Assembly (NCBI GenBank): GCA_021158225.1
Contig: JAGGUZ010000026.1
Location: 1-48,653 of the forward strand
Direction of reading: 5' to 3'
DNA length: 48,653 nucleotides
DNA from: a bacterium
GTDB lineage: Bacteria > Patescibacteriota > Gracilibacteria > UBA1369 > PNNO01
Below, in pieces: positions 12,338-19,903 of this stretch. The notes below the pieces were generated by a model. That model was not told the DNA's origin, did not search any database, and worked only from the letters and a program-made list of their open reading frames with translations. How positions within the stretch are numbered: position 1 is the stretch's first letter; the number at the start of each line of letters is the position of its first letter. A program made the position numbers and the translations under genes.

Positions 12338-12915
12338 AATTTCATACGACTAATTTTTTTAAAGCCCCATTCATCCCACTGCCAAATTGCAACACTCTTT
12401 GCACCATTACCATAGTTATCCCATTCATACGGCCTTTCCCAAACCATTATTTCATTTTTTCCGTCACCATCAAAATCACCCAATCTTGTCTTAATATTAA
12501 TATACGGTAAATTTGATGAATGCCAAAGGGATTTAATACCGTCATCCCACTTATACAAAAACAAATGTTGTTTGTACGAATTATCGTTTTTATCAAGCCA
12601 AAAAGGCAAAGATTTCCCGTAGTTTCCCTTCTTCCAAAGGTACAATGCAAGCTCGTTATTTCCACTGTTTGTGAAATCTCCAACCATTACTTTTTTAACA
12701 TCCCACTGTGGATCTGTTCTAAAAATTAGCTCCTCACCATTAAATACTTTAACAACTCCATTGGATCTTTCTATCCGCTCATAAAAACCATCGTTGTTAA
12801 AATCGACAAAAATAACTTCCTGCGGTTTTAAAGTATGTAAAAAGAGGAGGACAAAAAGTCCCCCTCCAACTAAAACTTTTAATATTATTCCCAAAATTTT
12901 ACAAATGTTTGCCAT
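12334..12915 (-). CDS. FG-GAP/VCBS-like membrane-anchored protein
   Basis: The 193-residue protein has an N-terminal hydrophobic helix (about 7-26, LGIILKVLVGGGLFVLLFL) followed by an extracytoplasmic beta domain. That domain holds three FG-GAP-type units with Asp-rich calcium-loop motifs: VDFNNDGFYE, GDFTNSGNNELAL and GDFDGDGKNEIMVW. Such repeats normally build beta-propeller blades; three are too few for a complete propeller, so it may oligomerise. The start lies 31 nt inside the end of the DUF3160 gene and its stop overlaps alr, so all three genes are probably translationally coupled. Function unknown; a cell-surface binding role is inferred. Confidence 0.65.
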   Translation of the reverse strand: MANICKILGIILKVLVGGGLFVLLFLHTLKPQEVIFVDFNNDGFYERIERSNGVVKVFNGEELIFRTDPQWDVKKVMVGDFTNSGNNELALYLWKKGNYGKSLPFWLDKNDNSYKQHLFLYKWDDGIKSLWHSSNLPYINIKTRLGDFDGDGKNEIMVWERPYEWDNYGNGAKSVAIWQWDEWGFKKISRMKL

Positions 12916-15077
12916 GATGGTCTATCAGGTCTCTTATCATTGTCCCACAAAATTTCGTCTCTCCATTTTTCATCGGTAAGTCTGTCCGCCATTGGCCAAG
13001 AAAATTCATAATATGAATAGACTCCACCTTTACCGACTCTTAGTTCTCCATCAATTGGGAATACAACATAGATTGGTTCAACATGTCCTGTCCCAACCTC
13101 AAGAACACAGCAATTCGGATTAGTAGCAACATCGGCAATAATCGGTGCCGGATTATCATTTAAAAGATTGTCGTTTTCTTTTTCTTTATCGGTAAAAGTT
13201 TCATCCCAAAAATGTTCAAGAGAACCTCCGTATGCTCTTATAAATTCATATTCATCATCCGTTAAATCCGTATTTTCAAGCTCTTTTACAGAAATATCAC
13301 GAAGACGAATCAACATATCTTTTAATTTTCCAAGTTGCTCCTGGTTTTTATTACTCAAGATTTCCCTGTCTTTAAGGCCATCAACAGTAAACTGAGTTAA
13401 AGAAGCAAGTCTTGCATACAAATCGGGATTTGGTTCCACATAACCACGATCGTCGTTTTTATCAATCATTGGACCTCCACCAAGTTCCGCATAAACTTGT
13501 TTCGCATAAAGAATTGTATCGTGCTTAAGTTCCGCCCAACTTCCAAGGTATGTATTTAATTCCTTCTTTCCCCATTCATCTGACTGCATAAATGAAGGAT
13601 AACCTTCTCCATACTCGTGTCCAAGCGTATTTAACGTATAAATCCATCCCCAGTAAAGATTCTCCGTCCACTGTGATTTTGGCAGTTCTTTCATTCCATT
13701 CTGCAATTTTTTCATATTTTCAGGATATTTTTCATAACCGGTCTCCCCCATTTCATCAAGAAGTTTGTACGCCAACTTAGAACCCATTACAGACGGAATA
13801 TCCAATCCATTAGGGAGCATTCGCGAATCTTCTTTTGGACATTCCATACTTCCGTCCAAATTACCCACCTCACTGCAGATTAACTTTTGAAAAACATAAG
13901 CGTCGATAGTAAATCTTTGCCCCATAAACCTAAATCCTTTTATTTCTTCAGTTTTTTCTTCAGCTGTCCTTTCCGGTTCAAAAACCGTACCCAAAATAGG
14001 CATTGAATTCACTCCCGGATCACGCAGAGTTTTGGCATCGGCAATAAACGAGTCCAGCCCACTATTATTTTGAGTCAAAGTATCAACAGTAAAATCATCC
14101 CCATATACTTTTTTTGCAACAGGAGCATAATCCAAATAAACAAGATCATCCGGATCTCCAACAAAAAATCCTATCGGTTCATAAAGTTTTTTCCAATCGT
14201 TTCTTGCATCATCATTATTTTTAAGAGATTCGACAATTAGAAGCGCAGAACGCACCTCATCTTTTTCTTTAAGCCTAAAAGTCATTCTTCCGTAATACAT
14301 AAGAGCCTTAAAATATCTTTTTAATTGCTCTGTCTTTGTATAATGTCCACGTGGAATATATTGAGAAAAATCTTCCAAATAATTCACTCCCATTGCTAAG
14401 GAAGGAGCAAGACCTTTATGTAAATTAATAGACTTAATTTCACTATTAACATTATTAGCTACAAATTCCGGAATATCCGCTTTATCACCATCCAAGATAA
14501 CCATTACAACTGTAAAAAAAGTTACATTTCTTTTCGCGGAATTTTCCCAATCCGTGTCTTTTAATTTATTATATTGCTGTAAAGAAAGTTTTTGCATTTC
14601 AGAAGACAAATTGTATGCTAAGTCATAAAGCTCATTTTCCTCAAGACTCTTTAAAAGAAAATCAAAATATAAATGATATGTATGAAGTACAGAATCGGTC
14701 GTTATAAAACTTGGGATATATTGATATCTATTATCTTCATATACAGAAAAATATTCATCATTCCATCCTTCCGATACAACAAATCCATTTTTCGCCAGAT
14801 ATTCTTTCGCTGAATCCGGACCATTTATAATCTTTGTATAAGCAACATTACTCAAATCATCTTTAATTTCATACGAAGGAACCGCCGGAGTAAAATCAAT
14901 TTCATTATCTTGCCAGAGAGCAAATGAATCGGCCTGCGCAGTCTTTACTTCTTGCTTAACAGTTTCACTTTGTTTGGTATTTTGCTGGTCAGGTTGATTA
15001 GTAGGCTGTTCTTCTTGAACAGGGCCACATCCTGTCACCAGAAACGCAAATACAAGCGCCGTTACAAGTTTTTTCAT
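12885..15077 (-). CDS. DUF3160 family lipoprotein
   Basis: The 730-residue exported protein has a lipoprotein signal (MKKLVTALVFAFLVTGC, lipobox LVTGC, Cys17), a Gln/Thr/Glu-rich linker (about 20-50) and one large domain. The passage IPSFITTDSVLHTYHLYFDFLLKSLEE (read in two parts, about residues 115-145) is characteristic of DUF3160, a family of uncharacterised surface proteins in environmental bacteria. Later segments such as LGSWAELKHDTILYAKQ and VGTGHVEPIYVVFPIDGE also fit. No catalytic site is established for the family. It is the first gene of the operon with the FG-GAP-like protein and alr. A TAATAT box 7 nt before the ATG may give a leaderless start. Confidence 0.8.
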   Translation of the reverse strand: MKKLVTALVFAFLVTGCGPVQEEQPTNQPDQQNTKQSETVKQEVKTAQADSFALWQDNEIDFTPAVPSYEIKDDLSNVAYTKIINGPDSAKEYLAKNGFVVSEGWNDEYFSVYEDNRYQYIPSFITTDSVLHTYHLYFDFLLKSLEENELYDLAYNLSSEMQKLSLQQYNKLKDTDWENSAKRNVTFFTVVMVILDGDKADIPEFVANNVNSEIKSINLHKGLAPSLAMGVNYLEDFSQYIPRGHYTKTEQLKRYFKALMYYGRMTFRLKEKDEVRSALLIVESLKNNDDARNDWKKLYEPIGFFVGDPDDLVYLDYAPVAKKVYGDDFTVDTLTQNNSGLDSFIADAKTLRDPGVNSMPILGTVFEPERTAEEKTEEIKGFRFMGQRFTIDAYVFQKLICSEVGNLDGSMECPKEDSRMLPNGLDIPSVMGSKLAYKLLDEMGETGYEKYPENMKKLQNGMKELPKSQWTENLYWGWIYTLNTLGHEYGEGYPSFMQSDEWGKKELNTYLGSWAELKHDTILYAKQVYAELGGGPMIDKNDDRGYVEPNPDLYARLASLTQFTVDGLKDREILSNKNQEQLGKLKDMLIRLRDISVKELENTDLTDDEYEFIRAYGGSLEHFWDETFTDKEKENDNLLNDNPAPIIADVATNPNCCVLEVGTGHVEPIYVVFPIDGELRVGKGGVYSYYEFSWPMADRLTDEKWRDEILWDNDKRPDRPSWQTFVKFWE

Positions 15078-15512: not shown

Positions 15513-16262
15513 TTAAAAAAGTGTTTGGTTAGAGATAATAAAATCATTCGCTTCTTCTTTTGTAAGTTTTTTTAACTTTTTCAACTCGTTTTCTCCAACT
15601 ATTTCCCCACGATTTTCCTTTATTTCTACAACTTTTTCAAGCTGTTTTTTAGTTAACAACACATTCTCCTTCGCTTTTTTAATATTTTCAGGTGTTTTTT
15701 CGGCAAACATAATATATTTACCGCACTTCTCACAATCAACTCGTATCATCTTACTATCCGACATCCAACTAAGCACTCCATTAACCTTCTTATCGCAATT
15801 TTTGCAATAATATCCATCCACCAATTTTTGAACATTTATAGTTCCAGACTGTGGCAATTTTTTAGATTCATTCACAGCCAATTTATCAACACGATTATTC
15901 AAATCGTTATTAGCATGACCCTTTACCCAATTCCATTTAATTTTAACATCTTTCAAACTATTCATCGCTTTATCAAACTCTTCCCATAAATCAAGATTTA
16001 CCTTTCGCTTCCACCCTTCGTTAATACTGTTAATAATTAAGCTCGAATCGCTATAAACATCAACAGGCACATCTTTAACATTTTCAGAAAGCCACTTAAC
16101 CGTTTCTATAATCGCTTTCATTTCCATCCTGTTATTTGTCGTACTTACTTGTCCGCCTTTTAAAACAAATTCATTCCCATTTTGAATAATAATAGCAGCC
16201 CATCCCCCACTACCCGGATTACCAAGACAACTTCCATCTGTATAAACAACAATATTTTCCAT
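15513..16262 (-). CDS. rnhA: RNase HI with C-terminal zinc ribbon
   Basis: RNase HI cleaves the RNA strand of RNA-DNA hybrids. The ORF track begins at 16340, but the family starts at MENIVVYTDGSCLGNPG, so ATG 16262 (249 residues) is chosen. Catalytic acidic residues are visible: Asp in YTDGS, Glu in NNRMEMKAIIE, Asp in VYSDSSL and Asp in NNRVDKLA, with GHANND matching the conserved His region. After residue about 150 comes an unusual tail: a CKNC...CEKC zinc ribbon (about 165-200) and a Lys/Glu helix to the end. Normal RNase HI is about 150-160 residues, so this is an extended form, probably with added nucleic-acid binding. Confidence 0.9.
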   Translation of the reverse strand: MENIVVYTDGSCLGNPGSGGWAAIIIQNGNEFVLKGGQVSTTNNRMEMKAIIETVKWLSENVKDVPVDVYSDSSLIINSINEGWKRKVNLDLWEEFDKAMNSLKDVKIKWNWVKGHANNDLNNRVDKLAVNESKKLPQSGTINVQKLVDGYYCKNCDKKVNGVLSWMSDSKMIRVDCEKCGKYIMFAEKTPENIKKAKENVLLTKKQLEKVVEIKENRGEIVGENELKKLKKLTKEEANDFIISNQTLF

Positions 16263-16343: not shown

Positions 16344-17267
16344 ATGTACGCATATATGACAATATTGGTTATTGCATCAATGGCTCCCATTGTTTTTTTA
16401 CTATGGTATTTCGACCATCTCGATAAAAAGGAAAAAGAATCAAGAAGATTCTTATGGAGCATTTTCTTGTGGGGAGTTTTAATAACTTTTATCGCCGGAA
16501 TAATTGAATATTTTTCTGAAGATTTATTGCTTTCTTTTGTTTTCGATCCACTCATTCAAACATTTGCAATAGCTTTTATATCAACAGCTACAGTAGAAGA
16601 GAGCCTTAAATATCTGGTTGTAAAAAAGAAAGTATACGATCACCCGGCATTTAACGAATATTATGATGGAATAATATATGCGGTTGTAGCCAGCCTTGGA
16701 TTTGCGGCAATGGAAAATATATTTTATGTATTTGAAGGAGGTCTTTATGTAGCAATAATTCGAGCATTTTTAACCGTTCCCGCTCATGCGCTTTTTGGCG
16801 CTATTATGGGCTACAATATAAGCCTTGCCAGATTTTCAACAAACAAAGCAGACGAGAAAAAATTTCTAAAAAAGGGATTAATACTCGCCATAGTCTTTCA
16901 CGGTTTGTATGACTTCTTGTTATTAATAAGTTCATCGCTAGCTTTGTTCGTAGTTCCTATTCTCCTTGGTCTTTGGATGTATATAAGACGAAAAATAAAA
17001 TATTTACATTTTATGGATAAACTCCCCGGCTCATACATCCCTCCAAAATGGTCTATATGGACATATATAAGAGTTAGCATAGGCATGATATTTTTTACAT
17101 TCGGTCTTCTTGCAACACTTACAGCAGTACTTTACATAACCAAAGATCCCCTTGGACAAGACATATTTACAGATATAGATTTCAATCTATCGTTTACATT
17201 AATATTTACAGCAATAACATGGATAATCGCTTACACGCTAATGCGGGAGAAAAAAATAAAACAATAA
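16344..17267 (+). CDS. PrsW-family intramembrane metalloprotease
   Basis: The 307-residue polytopic protein has about eight predicted membrane helices. The three PrsW/CPBP-type motifs lie within membrane segments: EESLKYLVV (EExxK, about residue 81), VPAHALFGAIMGYN (His, about 149) and FHGLYDF (HxxxD, about 187). In Bacillus, PrsW performs site-1 cleavage of the anti-sigma factor RsiW. No sigma/anti-sigma pair lies here, so the substrate is unknown. The gene starts 81 nt from the divergent rnhA and its end overlaps the kinase-like gene by 49 nt. The whole three-gene unit (protease, kinase-like, SLH protein) is probably one transcript. Confidence 0.85.
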   Translation: MYAYMTILVIASMAPIVFLLWYFDHLDKKEKESRRFLWSIFLWGVLITFIAGIIEYFSEDLLLSFVFDPLIQTFAIAFISTATVEESLKYLVVKKKVYDHPAFNEYYDGIIYAVVASLGFAAMENIFYVFEGGLYVAIIRAFLTVPAHALFGAIMGYNISLARFSTNKADEKKFLKKGLILAIVFHGLYDFLLLISSSLALFVVPILLGLWMYIRRKIKYLHFMDKLPGSYIPPKWSIWTYIRVSIGMIFFTFGLLATLTAVLYITKDPLGQDIFTDIDFNLSFTLIFTAITWIIAYTLMREKKIKQ

Positions 17268-18550
17268 ATCAACCCGATCAGTATCTTCCTCTTAATTTAG
17301 TTTATTTTTCCGACAAATTTAAACTTGAGAATGGTCAAAAAAATATTTTTAAGGACATTATTTCTTGGAAACAAAACCCTCCTCTTGTAAAAACCGGCAG
17401 AAGCACTTATTTACTTATAAAAGACGAGAAAATTCCATTTAAAAGTATAAAAATTAAAGGATGTGGATTTTTTGATATTCAAAACAATTCAATTTCGCAA
17501 CCATCAACAGAGGAAGGTTATGACGCACACATTCAATATGCTCCGGACGGCATAAAAGAAATCCATTATCAAATAGAAGTTAACAACCATGATGAACCTA
17601 TTTATTCCGTCCCAAAAAAGAGGCCGTACGGAGGACAAACTTTTAATAGAGCAAAATTAGAGTTTGATGCCACAAATCATCTGTTTAGCAATTGGGACGG
17701 AAAGTCTGAAGATTTCCCGTTTTATTTTCCTGTAGGATATGCAAGATACGAGAATTTATTTTATAAAGACGAACCGCTTGGGGTAACCGTTTTAGGAATT
17801 CCAAGTGAAAAAGAGACTGCTCTTGGAGCTTATTTTATTGGACAGTTTGAAGATGAAGGACTTAGAATCAATCCTCATCTTGTTGCTTACTGGCAAAAGC
17901 ACATTGCCCCCGCCGGGAAAGAAACCCCCGATTATTTTGATCTGCTGACAACCTTAAAGAAATTATCTTTCGAATTTGGGAAAACACTTTCATATTTACA
18001 CAAACATTTTGTAGATCACGATAGCCATCTATTTAATGCAATGGTAAATAATAATGTAGGAAATGTTGTTTTTTTCGATCTTGATCATGTTTTAGATATT
18101 AAAAACATATCAACACAAAAATATTTTTATTATGCTCTTAAAGATTTAGAAATAGGACTTGTAGCTATTTTAAGCAATTTTCTTCTTAGCGGAATAGTAG
18201 ATGGACTCGTTCTCTTTGCAAAATTGGGGCAAACCATAGATGACTATAACTTAATTGAAGGATTCTTCGCCGGATATTTTGGAGAAGAAAACGAAGTGGC
18301 AAAGCAAGATGCAAAAAATATATGGAACAGATTAATTGATTTTGCATTAAATAAAATAATACCGACCTCGCGAAAAGATCAATTTAATTTAGCTTATGAT
18401 TTTTGCGAGAAAGAAAGGCAAAAATCGTATATAGATTCTTACAGATATTTTAAAAAAAGGATGAATTTGGATATAACACCGGAAAAACATGCTATAATAA
18501 TTACAAATCTTATTACACAACGTTTAACACTTAACCAAAATTTAGTATGA
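17219..18550 (+). CDS. kinase-like (APH/protein-kinase fold) protein, unknown substrate
   Basis: The 443 residues show no membrane helix of clear strength. Two features suggest a kinase-like fold. One is an N-lobe-like stretch with IKIKGCGFF and Lys-rich strands (about 55-80). The other is a catalytic-loop-like motif HFVDHDSHLFNAMV followed 12 residues on by FFDLDHVLD (about 262-292), corresponding to HxDxxxxN and DxD of aminoglycoside/choline kinases. The start ATG lies 49 nt inside prsW; no later ATG is available, so coupling is likely. The stop overlaps the SLH gene start (ATGA). A phosphotransferase acting on a cell-surface sugar or protein is a hypothesis only. Confidence 0.55.
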   Translation: MDNRLHANAGEKNKTINQPDQYLPLNLVYFSDKFKLENGQKNIFKDIISWKQNPPLVKTGRSTYLLIKDEKIPFKSIKIKGCGFFDIQNNSISQPSTEEGYDAHIQYAPDGIKEIHYQIEVNNHDEPIYSVPKKRPYGGQTFNRAKLEFDATNHLFSNWDGKSEDFPFYFPVGYARYENLFYKDEPLGVTVLGIPSEKETALGAYFIGQFEDEGLRINPHLVAYWQKHIAPAGKETPDYFDLLTTLKKLSFEFGKTLSYLHKHFVDHDSHLFNAMVNNNVGNVVFFDLDHVLDIKNISTQKYFYYALKDLEIGLVAILSNFLLSGIVDGLVLFAKLGQTIDDYNLIEGFFAGYFGEENEVAKQDAKNIWNRLIDFALNKIIPTSRKDQFNLAYDFCEKERQKSYIDSYRYFKKRMNLDITPEKHAIIITNLITQRLTLNQNLV

Positions 18551-19491
18551 AACACATACTAACGCGAACAATTACAGCTTTTGCAATAAGCTCGCTGATG
18601 TTTGCAAGCGTTGCATCTGCAGTTGTAACAGATGCAAACAACTCTACGGAAGATCCCTACACAGACAATTCTTCGGTAGCCGTAACATTAGAAGGATCTC
18701 TTAACAACGATGGTAATGTTGATCTTTCTTGGAGCAAATACCAAGGTGAAGACTTAAAATGGTATAAAGTCGTTCGCTCTCAAGACAATCCGGACGCAAA
18801 ATATCCTATGGACGGTTATATTGAAGTTTACGGAGATCCAACTCAAACAACTTATACGGACAAAAATGTGCAAAATGGAGTTAATTACTACAGACTTTGC
18901 GTAATTACAACTGCAAACCTTCGAGGATGTAGTAATACTGTTACAATTAATAAAGCAGCAGTCGCTTCCGAAGGCTTTGCGGATGTTCCCGAAGATCATT
19001 GGGCAAAACCATATATAGACGATCTAACTAACAAAGGCATTGTACAAGGACGAGATGGGAAATACGAACCGGATTCCCCAATCTTGCGAGCTGAAGCAAT
19101 TAAAATGGTTATGTACGGAGTAGGCCTTAACGGATCATCTTGCAATAGCAATATCTTCCCGGATTTAAATCAAGAAGACTGGTTCTGCGATGTTGTAACA
19201 AAAGCTTACAATAAAGGAATAGTTAAAGGTGATAACGGATATCTTTACCCTGCAAGAAATATTACAAGAGCCGAAGCCGTGACGATACTGTTAAAGGCAA
19301 AAGGTTTTGAAACTCCTGTGTTAACGGAAAATCCATTTGATGATGTTAATATTGAAGATTGGTACGCTGGATATATTTATAAAGCCTTTAAGCTTGGATA
19401 TGTTGTAGGAGTTGGAAACAATCTTTTTGAGCCGAACAGAAGCATTACAAGAGCAGAGATGGCAAAAATTGTTTCAATTGCAATAGAGTAG
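18547..19491 (+). CDS. S-layer homology (SLH) domain surface protein
   Basis: The 314-residue exported protein has a signal peptide (about 1-25, cleavage near ASVASA), a fibronectin type III-like domain (about 45-135, ending NYYRLCVITTANLRGCSN) and three SLH repeats (about 142-200, 205-258, 265-314). Each repeat has the typical F.DV...W....I..A...GIV.G pattern (for example FADVPEDHWAKPYIDDL and LRAEAIKMV). SLH domains bind pyruvylated secondary wall polymers and hold proteins on the surface. The start overlaps the kinase-like stop by 4 nt. A hairpin terminator follows 15 nt after the stop, closing the prsW operon. Confidence 0.9.
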   Translation: MKHILTRTITAFAISSLMFASVASAVVTDANNSTEDPYTDNSSVAVTLEGSLNNDGNVDLSWSKYQGEDLKWYKVVRSQDNPDAKYPMDGYIEVYGDPTQTTYTDKNVQNGVNYYRLCVITTANLRGCSNTVTINKAAVASEGFADVPEDHWAKPYIDDLTNKGIVQGRDGKYEPDSPILRAEAIKMVMYGVGLNGSSCNSNIFPDLNQEDWFCDVVTKAYNKGIVKGDNGYLYPARNITRAEAVTILLKAKGFETPVLTENPFDDVNIEDWYAGYIYKAFKLGYVVGVGNNLFEPNRSITRAEMAKIVSIAIE

Positions 19492-19505
19492 AATATTTCA
19501 AAAGA

Positions 19506-19543
19506 TTAAAGAGCTGAGATTTTAATATTTCTTAGCTCTTTAA
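19506..19543. terminator. bidirectional hairpin terminator
   Basis: TTAAAGAGCTGAGA and TCTTAGCTCTTTAA form a 14-bp stem (one G-T wobble) around a 10-nt loop. Plus-strand flank TTTATTATC and minus-strand flank TCTTTTG are moderately U-rich. It serves both the SLH gene and the convergent repeat-protein gene, whose stop codon lies inside the stem. Confidence 0.8.
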
Positions 19544-19903
19544 TTTATTATCTTCACGCAGTTTTTTTAATTCCATCAGTTCTTTAAGAGAGAATATTCT
19601 TTTCCCTTTTTCTTGTTCTTCATCGCTTTTTTCTTGTTCATCATCACTTTTTTCTTGTTCATCATCACTTTTTTCTTGTTCATCATCACTTTTTTCTTGT
19701 TCATCATCACTTTTTTCTTGCTCTTGCTTGCCATCAATAGCTAAAACTTTATTTGCTTTTCTTGCAACATCAGCCATATATGCTTGACGACCAATATCAA
19801 AAAGAACTTCGGTTGTAGGGATCATAGTATGTTTCCCATTAGATTCCGGTGAGCCTTCATCCTCTCTTAAGTTTCCATCCTCAGGAGGTTTTTTTTCGGA
19901 CAT
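19532..19903 (-). CDS. acidic repeat protein (EQEKSDD heptads), unknown
   Basis: The 123-residue soluble, highly charged protein has an unstructured-looking N-terminus (KKPPEDGNLREDEGSPES), a short helical middle (about 25-58, VLFDIGRQAYMADVARKANK), then about five exact or near-exact EQEKSDD heptads (about 60-98). It ends with a Lys/Leu helix (FSLKELMELKKLRED). The seven-residue period matches a coiled-coil heptad but lacks hydrophobic core residues, so disorder is more likely. It is monocistronic, with a strong promoter and a shared terminator. Family not recognised. Confidence 0.55.
   Translation of the reverse strand: MSEKKPPEDGNLREDEGSPESNGKHTMIPTTEVLFDIGRQAYMADVARKANKVLAIDGKQEQEKSDDEQEKSDDEQEKSDDEQEKSDDEQEKSDEEQEKGKRIFSLKELMELKKLREDNKLKS
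19611..19725 (-). repeat. 21-bp tandem coding repeat, about five copies
   Basis: Plus-strand unit cttgttcatcatcactttttt is repeated with almost no divergence. It encodes the EQEKSDD heptads. The near identity at synonymous positions indicates recent slippage or gene conversion. Confidence 0.9.

Follow-up and report, generated by a model that had tools for sequence, protein, structure and literature searches.

The window, that is, the whole 48,653-nucleotide stretch of DNA analysed here, belongs to a small-genome member of the Patescibacteria whose genome measures 990 kb and is 99% complete, and whose relatives in public genomes include Candidatus Peregrinibacteria. At 16344-19491 it carries a run of three forward-strand genes, which encode an intramembrane protease, a kinase-like protein and a surface protein. 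The features of the run and its immediate surroundings are as follows.

15513..16262, minus strand: divergent RNase H gene (longer open reading frame to 16340), a flank kept in 7 of 7 genomes of the family
16344..17267, plus strand: PrsW-family intramembrane metalloprotease, 307 aa (PF13367, E 5.8e-41)
17219..18550, plus strand: protein of predicted protein-kinase-like fold, 443 aa, uncatalogued family (predicted structure and profile search)
17264..17266, plus strand: in-frame ATA over the prsW stop codon TAA (17265-17267), at approximately the site of the relatives' ATG
18547..19491, plus strand: secreted SLH protein (PF00395, E 1.3e-34, three stretches)
about 19503..19546, no strand assigned: terminator hairpin of 17 bp with a T-rich tail, probably bidirectional

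The initial annotation had described three overlapping genes ending at a terminator, and both observations are borne out. According to the coordinates of the open reading frames in the window, prsW and the kinase-like gene overlap by 49 nt and the kinase-like and SLH genes by 4 nt. The hairpin is strong (-21.1 kcal/mol, z -5.5; none of 200 shuffles was equally stable) and was missed by a simple scanner owing to its loop limit. Since the end of a convergent minus-strand gene (19532-19903) overlaps the hairpin, the latter may terminate both that gene and the run. The convergent gene, whose stop codon overlaps the hairpin, encodes a small charged protein in which a 7-residue unit (KSDDEQE) is repeated in tandem about five times; a partial relative occurs at L013:1866-2339. 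A large DUF3160 protein (E 2e-216) is encoded at 12885-15077 (minus strand); its gene belongs to a run that also has an alanine racemase, and it is conserved at the same place in G002 and G005.

The assignments of the two outer proteins likewise hold. The protease has the full PF13367 domain, and the motifs EExxK (E85, E86, K89), FxxxE (F120-E124) and HxxxD (H186-D190), which we take to define PrsW proteins, are intact and conserved across the aligned relatives. Unlike a typical PrsW system, the locus has no visible anti-sigma partner. The SLH protein has a signal-peptide-like N terminus, judged by eye, and three C-terminal SLH domains. It contains one FnIII-like repeat where relatives have two (L012, L013, L014, L016), having either lost one or never duplicated it. 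The usual ligand of SLH domains is a wall polymer pyruvylated by a CsaB-type enzyme (PF04230), and the initial annotation had suggested, as an alternative role, that the run could modify this polymer. A search of the window's genome (G000, 99% complete) did not find this polysaccharide pyruvyl transferase; the enzyme occurs in 5 of 9 genomes tested and is patchy within the family, being present in G002, G003 and G005 and not found in G000, G001, G004 and G006.

The larger of the two overlaps depends on the start codon chosen for the kinase-like gene. ATG 17219 is the sole ATG, GTG or TTG ahead of the conserved region, but the first 18 or so residues of the protein are unconserved, and residues 1-13 are modelled at pLDDT <50. 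In relatives, the gene begins about 45 nt further downstream, so that it is 9 or 25 nt away from prsW or overlaps it by 19 nt, and the kinase-like and SLH genes are separated by 45-63 nt, as against the 4-nt overlap in the window. As the relatives' start position reads ATA in the window, this codon is a possible true, non-canonical start; the 49-nt overlap could then be due to annotation, or else it is genuine, if an ATG further upstream was recruited.

Fold and candidate catalytic residues of the kinase-like protein

A kinase fold is well supported for the middle protein by a predicted structure together with an independent sequence-profile match. The AlphaFold model built from 12 sequences (pLDDT 88.2, pTM 0.89) has the two lobes of this fold, and all 50 best listed Foldseek matches in the PDB are protein-kinase-like, with probabilities mostly of 0.94-1.00. 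As the E-values are modest (best 5e-4) and the TM-scores low, only the fold class is secure. Moreover, the 12-member profile finds a Ser/Thr kinase in the PDB (E 0.0098); their alignment spans the catalytic loop and pairs SHLxN with DLTTSN of the kinase and DLD with DFG. PDB searches with the single sequence and with an 8-member profile gave no match, and comparison of the family with Pfam, NCBIfam, PADLOC and PHROGs returned no credible match. A viral structure library yielded weak kinase matches only, and no homologues were found in viral contigs.

The initial annotation had called the protein an APH-like kinase and had proposed that a model without a kinase fold would count against its reading of the run. 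The kinase half of that label stands on both predicted structure and sequence profile; the APH half is not supported. The general fold and an HxDxHxxN-like loop are reminiscent of APH, but none of the 12 members matches PF01636 up to E 10, and no APH structure is among the listed matches. The lipopolysaccharide (LPS) kinases WaaP and KdkA offer a further comparison. The heptose kinase WaaP (6dfl, probability 1.00) has a target-normalised TM of 0.49, the best among the matches listed, and shares the two-lobed fold. Furthermore, the window protein has an Asp-x(4)-Asn loop and a DFD-like motif, as KdkA presumably does. It differs from both in being longer, in its KxKGxG lysine motif, and in having no detectable sequence-family match to them, and no LPS genes are seen in the locus.

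The kinase-like gene is present as a single copy in the window's genome, and purifying selection acts on it, with dN at about 0.2 against saturated synonymous sites. By eye, neither a signal peptide nor a membrane segment is evident in the protein, and a cytosolic location is thus expected. Its candidate catalytic residues, whose roles were assigned by order, spacing and predicted secondary structure rather than from coordinates, are listed below (all on the plus strand).

17456..17458: Lys80 of KxKGxG, candidate ATP-binding beta-3 lysine; invariant (12/12)
17660..17662: Glu148 in the next helix, candidate alpha-C glutamate; 11/12, with Asp in the twelfth
18020..18022: Asp268, candidate catalytic-loop Asp; 6/6 in the window's family, 0/6 in distant members
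18035..18037: Asn273, candidate metal-binding Asn; 12/12
18077..18085: Asp-Leu-Asp 287-289, counterpart of DFG/DFD; Asp287 in 12/12

Asp268 lies five residues before Asn273, the spacing found in protein kinases, and in the window's family all five kinase residues (Lys, Glu, catalytic Asp, Asn and DFG-Asp) are present. The six distant members have Ala, Gly, Gln or Ser at the position of Asp268. Judged by these aligned positions, the window's family has the residue pattern of active kinases and the distant members that of pseudokinases.

Distribution and gene order among relatives

The kinase-like family is a small one, restricted to this class of Patescibacteria. Its distribution is patchy, with members in 12 of the 89 genomes of the order and 13 of the 353 of the class, and an even phylum-wide sample of 380 genomes contained no homologues outside the class. 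Apart from the window's own bacterial family, the profile search recovered members in the same order in G049, G057, G082, G073, G031 and G016. A weak homologue in the same class but outside the order (G296; L048:8946-10112, 388 aa, with a TADN / DTD motif pair) could mark a wider family.

Within the bacterial family, the locus is framed by rnhA on one side and by pseudopilin-like, rsmI and tsaB genes on the other, and this frame is kept in most of the family. Adjacency of genes within it therefore represents one inherited locus, not a set of independent associations. Two other species of the window's genus have the order prsW, kinase-like gene, SLH gene, with gaps of 9-25 and 56 nt and no overlaps; among the relatives, the combined overlaps of 49 and 4 nt are peculiar to the window's genome. 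In G006, four genes (SxtJ-like, carbamoyltransferase, AlgX/GDSL-like and DUF5989) lie between prsW and the kinase-like gene. In G004, one contig carries prsW, an SxtJ-like gene and a carbamoyltransferase gene, a second carries SGNH-like, DUF5989, kinase-like and SLH genes, and both stretches reach close to a contig end; we infer that the two join into one locus. G003 has prsW, the SxtJ-like, carbamoyltransferase, SGNH-like and DUF5989 genes and the SLH gene at the locus, and the kinase-like gene was not found anywhere in its genome. In G005, prsW and the kinase-like gene overlap by 19 nt and there is no SLH gene at the locus. The kinase-like and SLH genes are adjacent in five of the six carriers, over a sequence divergence of about 50%.

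Gene types such as those of the insert are usually linked to the decoration of surface glycans. Their domains match well for the carbamoyltransferase (Carbam_trans_N/C, 7.5e-100 and 1.7e-71), DUF5989 (2.5e-22) and GDSL/ALGX (1e-7), and the best match of the SxtJ-like gene (8e-5) is just below the cut-off. The set is found at this locus in G003, G004 and G006, whereas searches for carbamoyltransferase and SGNH-like genes were negative in G000-G002 and G005, and hence in the window's genome. The four genes have been located in three genera (L014:6099-9380; L080:1809-5156; L081:1-2015 with L016:9649-10966). As to gain or loss of the insert, a concatenated-gene tree rejects neither, leaving four topologies that are all within confidence. 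The literature searched contained no description of the prsW/kinase/SLH combination or of the carbamoyltransferase-DUF5989 set.

The neighbourhood of the 443-residue family, which the initial annotation had named as a check, is thus not conserved, with the insert in two genera and a partner absent in others. The initial annotation had also taken occurrence of the middle gene alone elsewhere as a refutation of its reading, and this is what the six distant members of the order display: their available flanks of 4-9 kb contain neither a PrsW nor an SLH gene. G296 has a non-adjacent SLH gene at a distance of about 6.6 kb. The nameable neighbours of the distant members differ, comprising a phosphoribosyltransferase, signal peptidase II, a thioredoxin-reductase-like protein and Fic. 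The G016 homologue (L047:7173-10720) has a Fic-domain gene on one side and a beta-lactamase-fold gene on the other.

Proposed function and alternatives

Taken together, the envelope-related neighbours and the kinase fold make a phosphotransferase acting on envelope precursors the likeliest role of the window's protein. We tentatively favour a cytosolic enzyme of envelope chemistry, inherited in a loosely held string of envelope genes. The string reads prsW, [sxtJ-like, carbamoyltransferase, AlgX/SGNH-like, DUF5989], kinase-like gene, SLH gene, varying across the family and sitting between rnhA and the pseudopilin/rsmI/tsaB genes. As the window's genus lacks the genes in brackets, prsW abuts the kinase-like gene there, and short gaps would have shrunk to overlaps in the window's genome alone. 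The protein may bind ATP through Lys80, Glu148, Asn273 and Asp287, and with Asp268 as base it may transfer phosphate to an envelope precursor, whether a small molecule, a lipid or a glycan, in the manner of WaaP or KdkA. PrsW and the SLH protein would probably share the transcript of the kinase-like gene and would not be obligate partners. Against this reading, the distant homologues share no common envelope neighbourhood, the envelope neighbours amount to a single inherited locus, and G003 keeps the string without the kinase-like gene. Additionally, as the distant members are devoid of the catalytic Asp, the family as a whole need not consist of phosphotransferases.

The same observations may instead be read as an unrelated housekeeping or regulatory role, the transcript being merely shared with envelope genes in a compact genome. 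The solitary distant homologues with their varied neighbours and the patchy distribution (12 of the order's 89 genomes) are in keeping with such a role, and the whole rnhA-tsaB gene order is conserved in any case. However, the persistence of the SLH gene beside the kinase-like gene in five of six carriers, despite the divergence of their sequences, speaks against it, and we regard it as somewhat unlikely.

A third reading starts from the distant members and regards the protein as a pseudokinase-type transferase, engaged in SelO-like AMP transfer or acting as a scaffold, with the Asp of the window's clade secondary. In the published description of SelO (PMC8097203), the HRD Asp is missing and AMP transfer relies on a Lys, Glu, Asn and Asp equivalent to those of kinases. 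Similarly, all six distant members are devoid of an HRD-type Asp and keep the Lys, Asn and DFG-type Asp, with the Glu retained in five and replaced by Asp in one. SelO (6EAC, 0.97) was also the top-probability PDB match of a first and weaker model, with the highest query-normalised TM (0.37-0.38) among the matches listed for that model, and LKGxG and RExxxxA-type segments look similar to SelO by eye. Yet SelO is not among the best 50 matches of the better model, and the window's clade has the catalytic Asp in 6 of 6 members. Membership of the SelO/YdiU family of protein AMPylases finds no backing either, as there is no Pfam match (PF02696) and hhalign against ten SelO sequences was not significant (P 0.11), leaving the KxKG lysines unaligned. 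SelO genes were not found in 11 genomes (the window's own and relatives). A SelO-like role for the window's protein is accordingly doubtful. We give about the same small credence to a kinase-fold family that straddles the kinase/pseudokinase divide, in which most members would do another transfer, such as AMPylation, and one clade would be an envelope phosphotransferase.

The weakest reading is that of the initial annotation, a coupled surface-stress or S-layer quality-control module in which PrsW would sense or cleave, the kinase would relay and the SLH protein would be substrate or effector; contiguity in three species of the genus and the role of B. subtilis PrsW in cell-envelope stress signalling (PMC3498285) agree with it, but the trio does not stay together wherever the kinase-like gene is present, the order being interrupted in G006 and, over two contigs, in G004, a partner being missing in G003 and G005, and the distant kinase-like genes standing apart from PrsW and SLH genes, while, whether or not a genome has the kinase-like gene, PrsW proteins occur (19 of 19 genomes tested) and there are 11-37 SLH matches in each (21 of them in that of the window), and no anti-sigma or sigma factor is seen in the locus, so that a dedicated module is highly unlikely.

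Gene overlap in a small genome can therefore suggest a tight module that relatives contradict. The durable result is an uncatalogued, lineage-restricted family of predicted kinase fold in which the catalytic Asp is present in one clade and absent from the distant members. It adds to the kinase fold a family from a lineage in which experiments have hardly touched envelope biology, and the presence or absence of the catalytic Asp provides a natural contrast open to assay.
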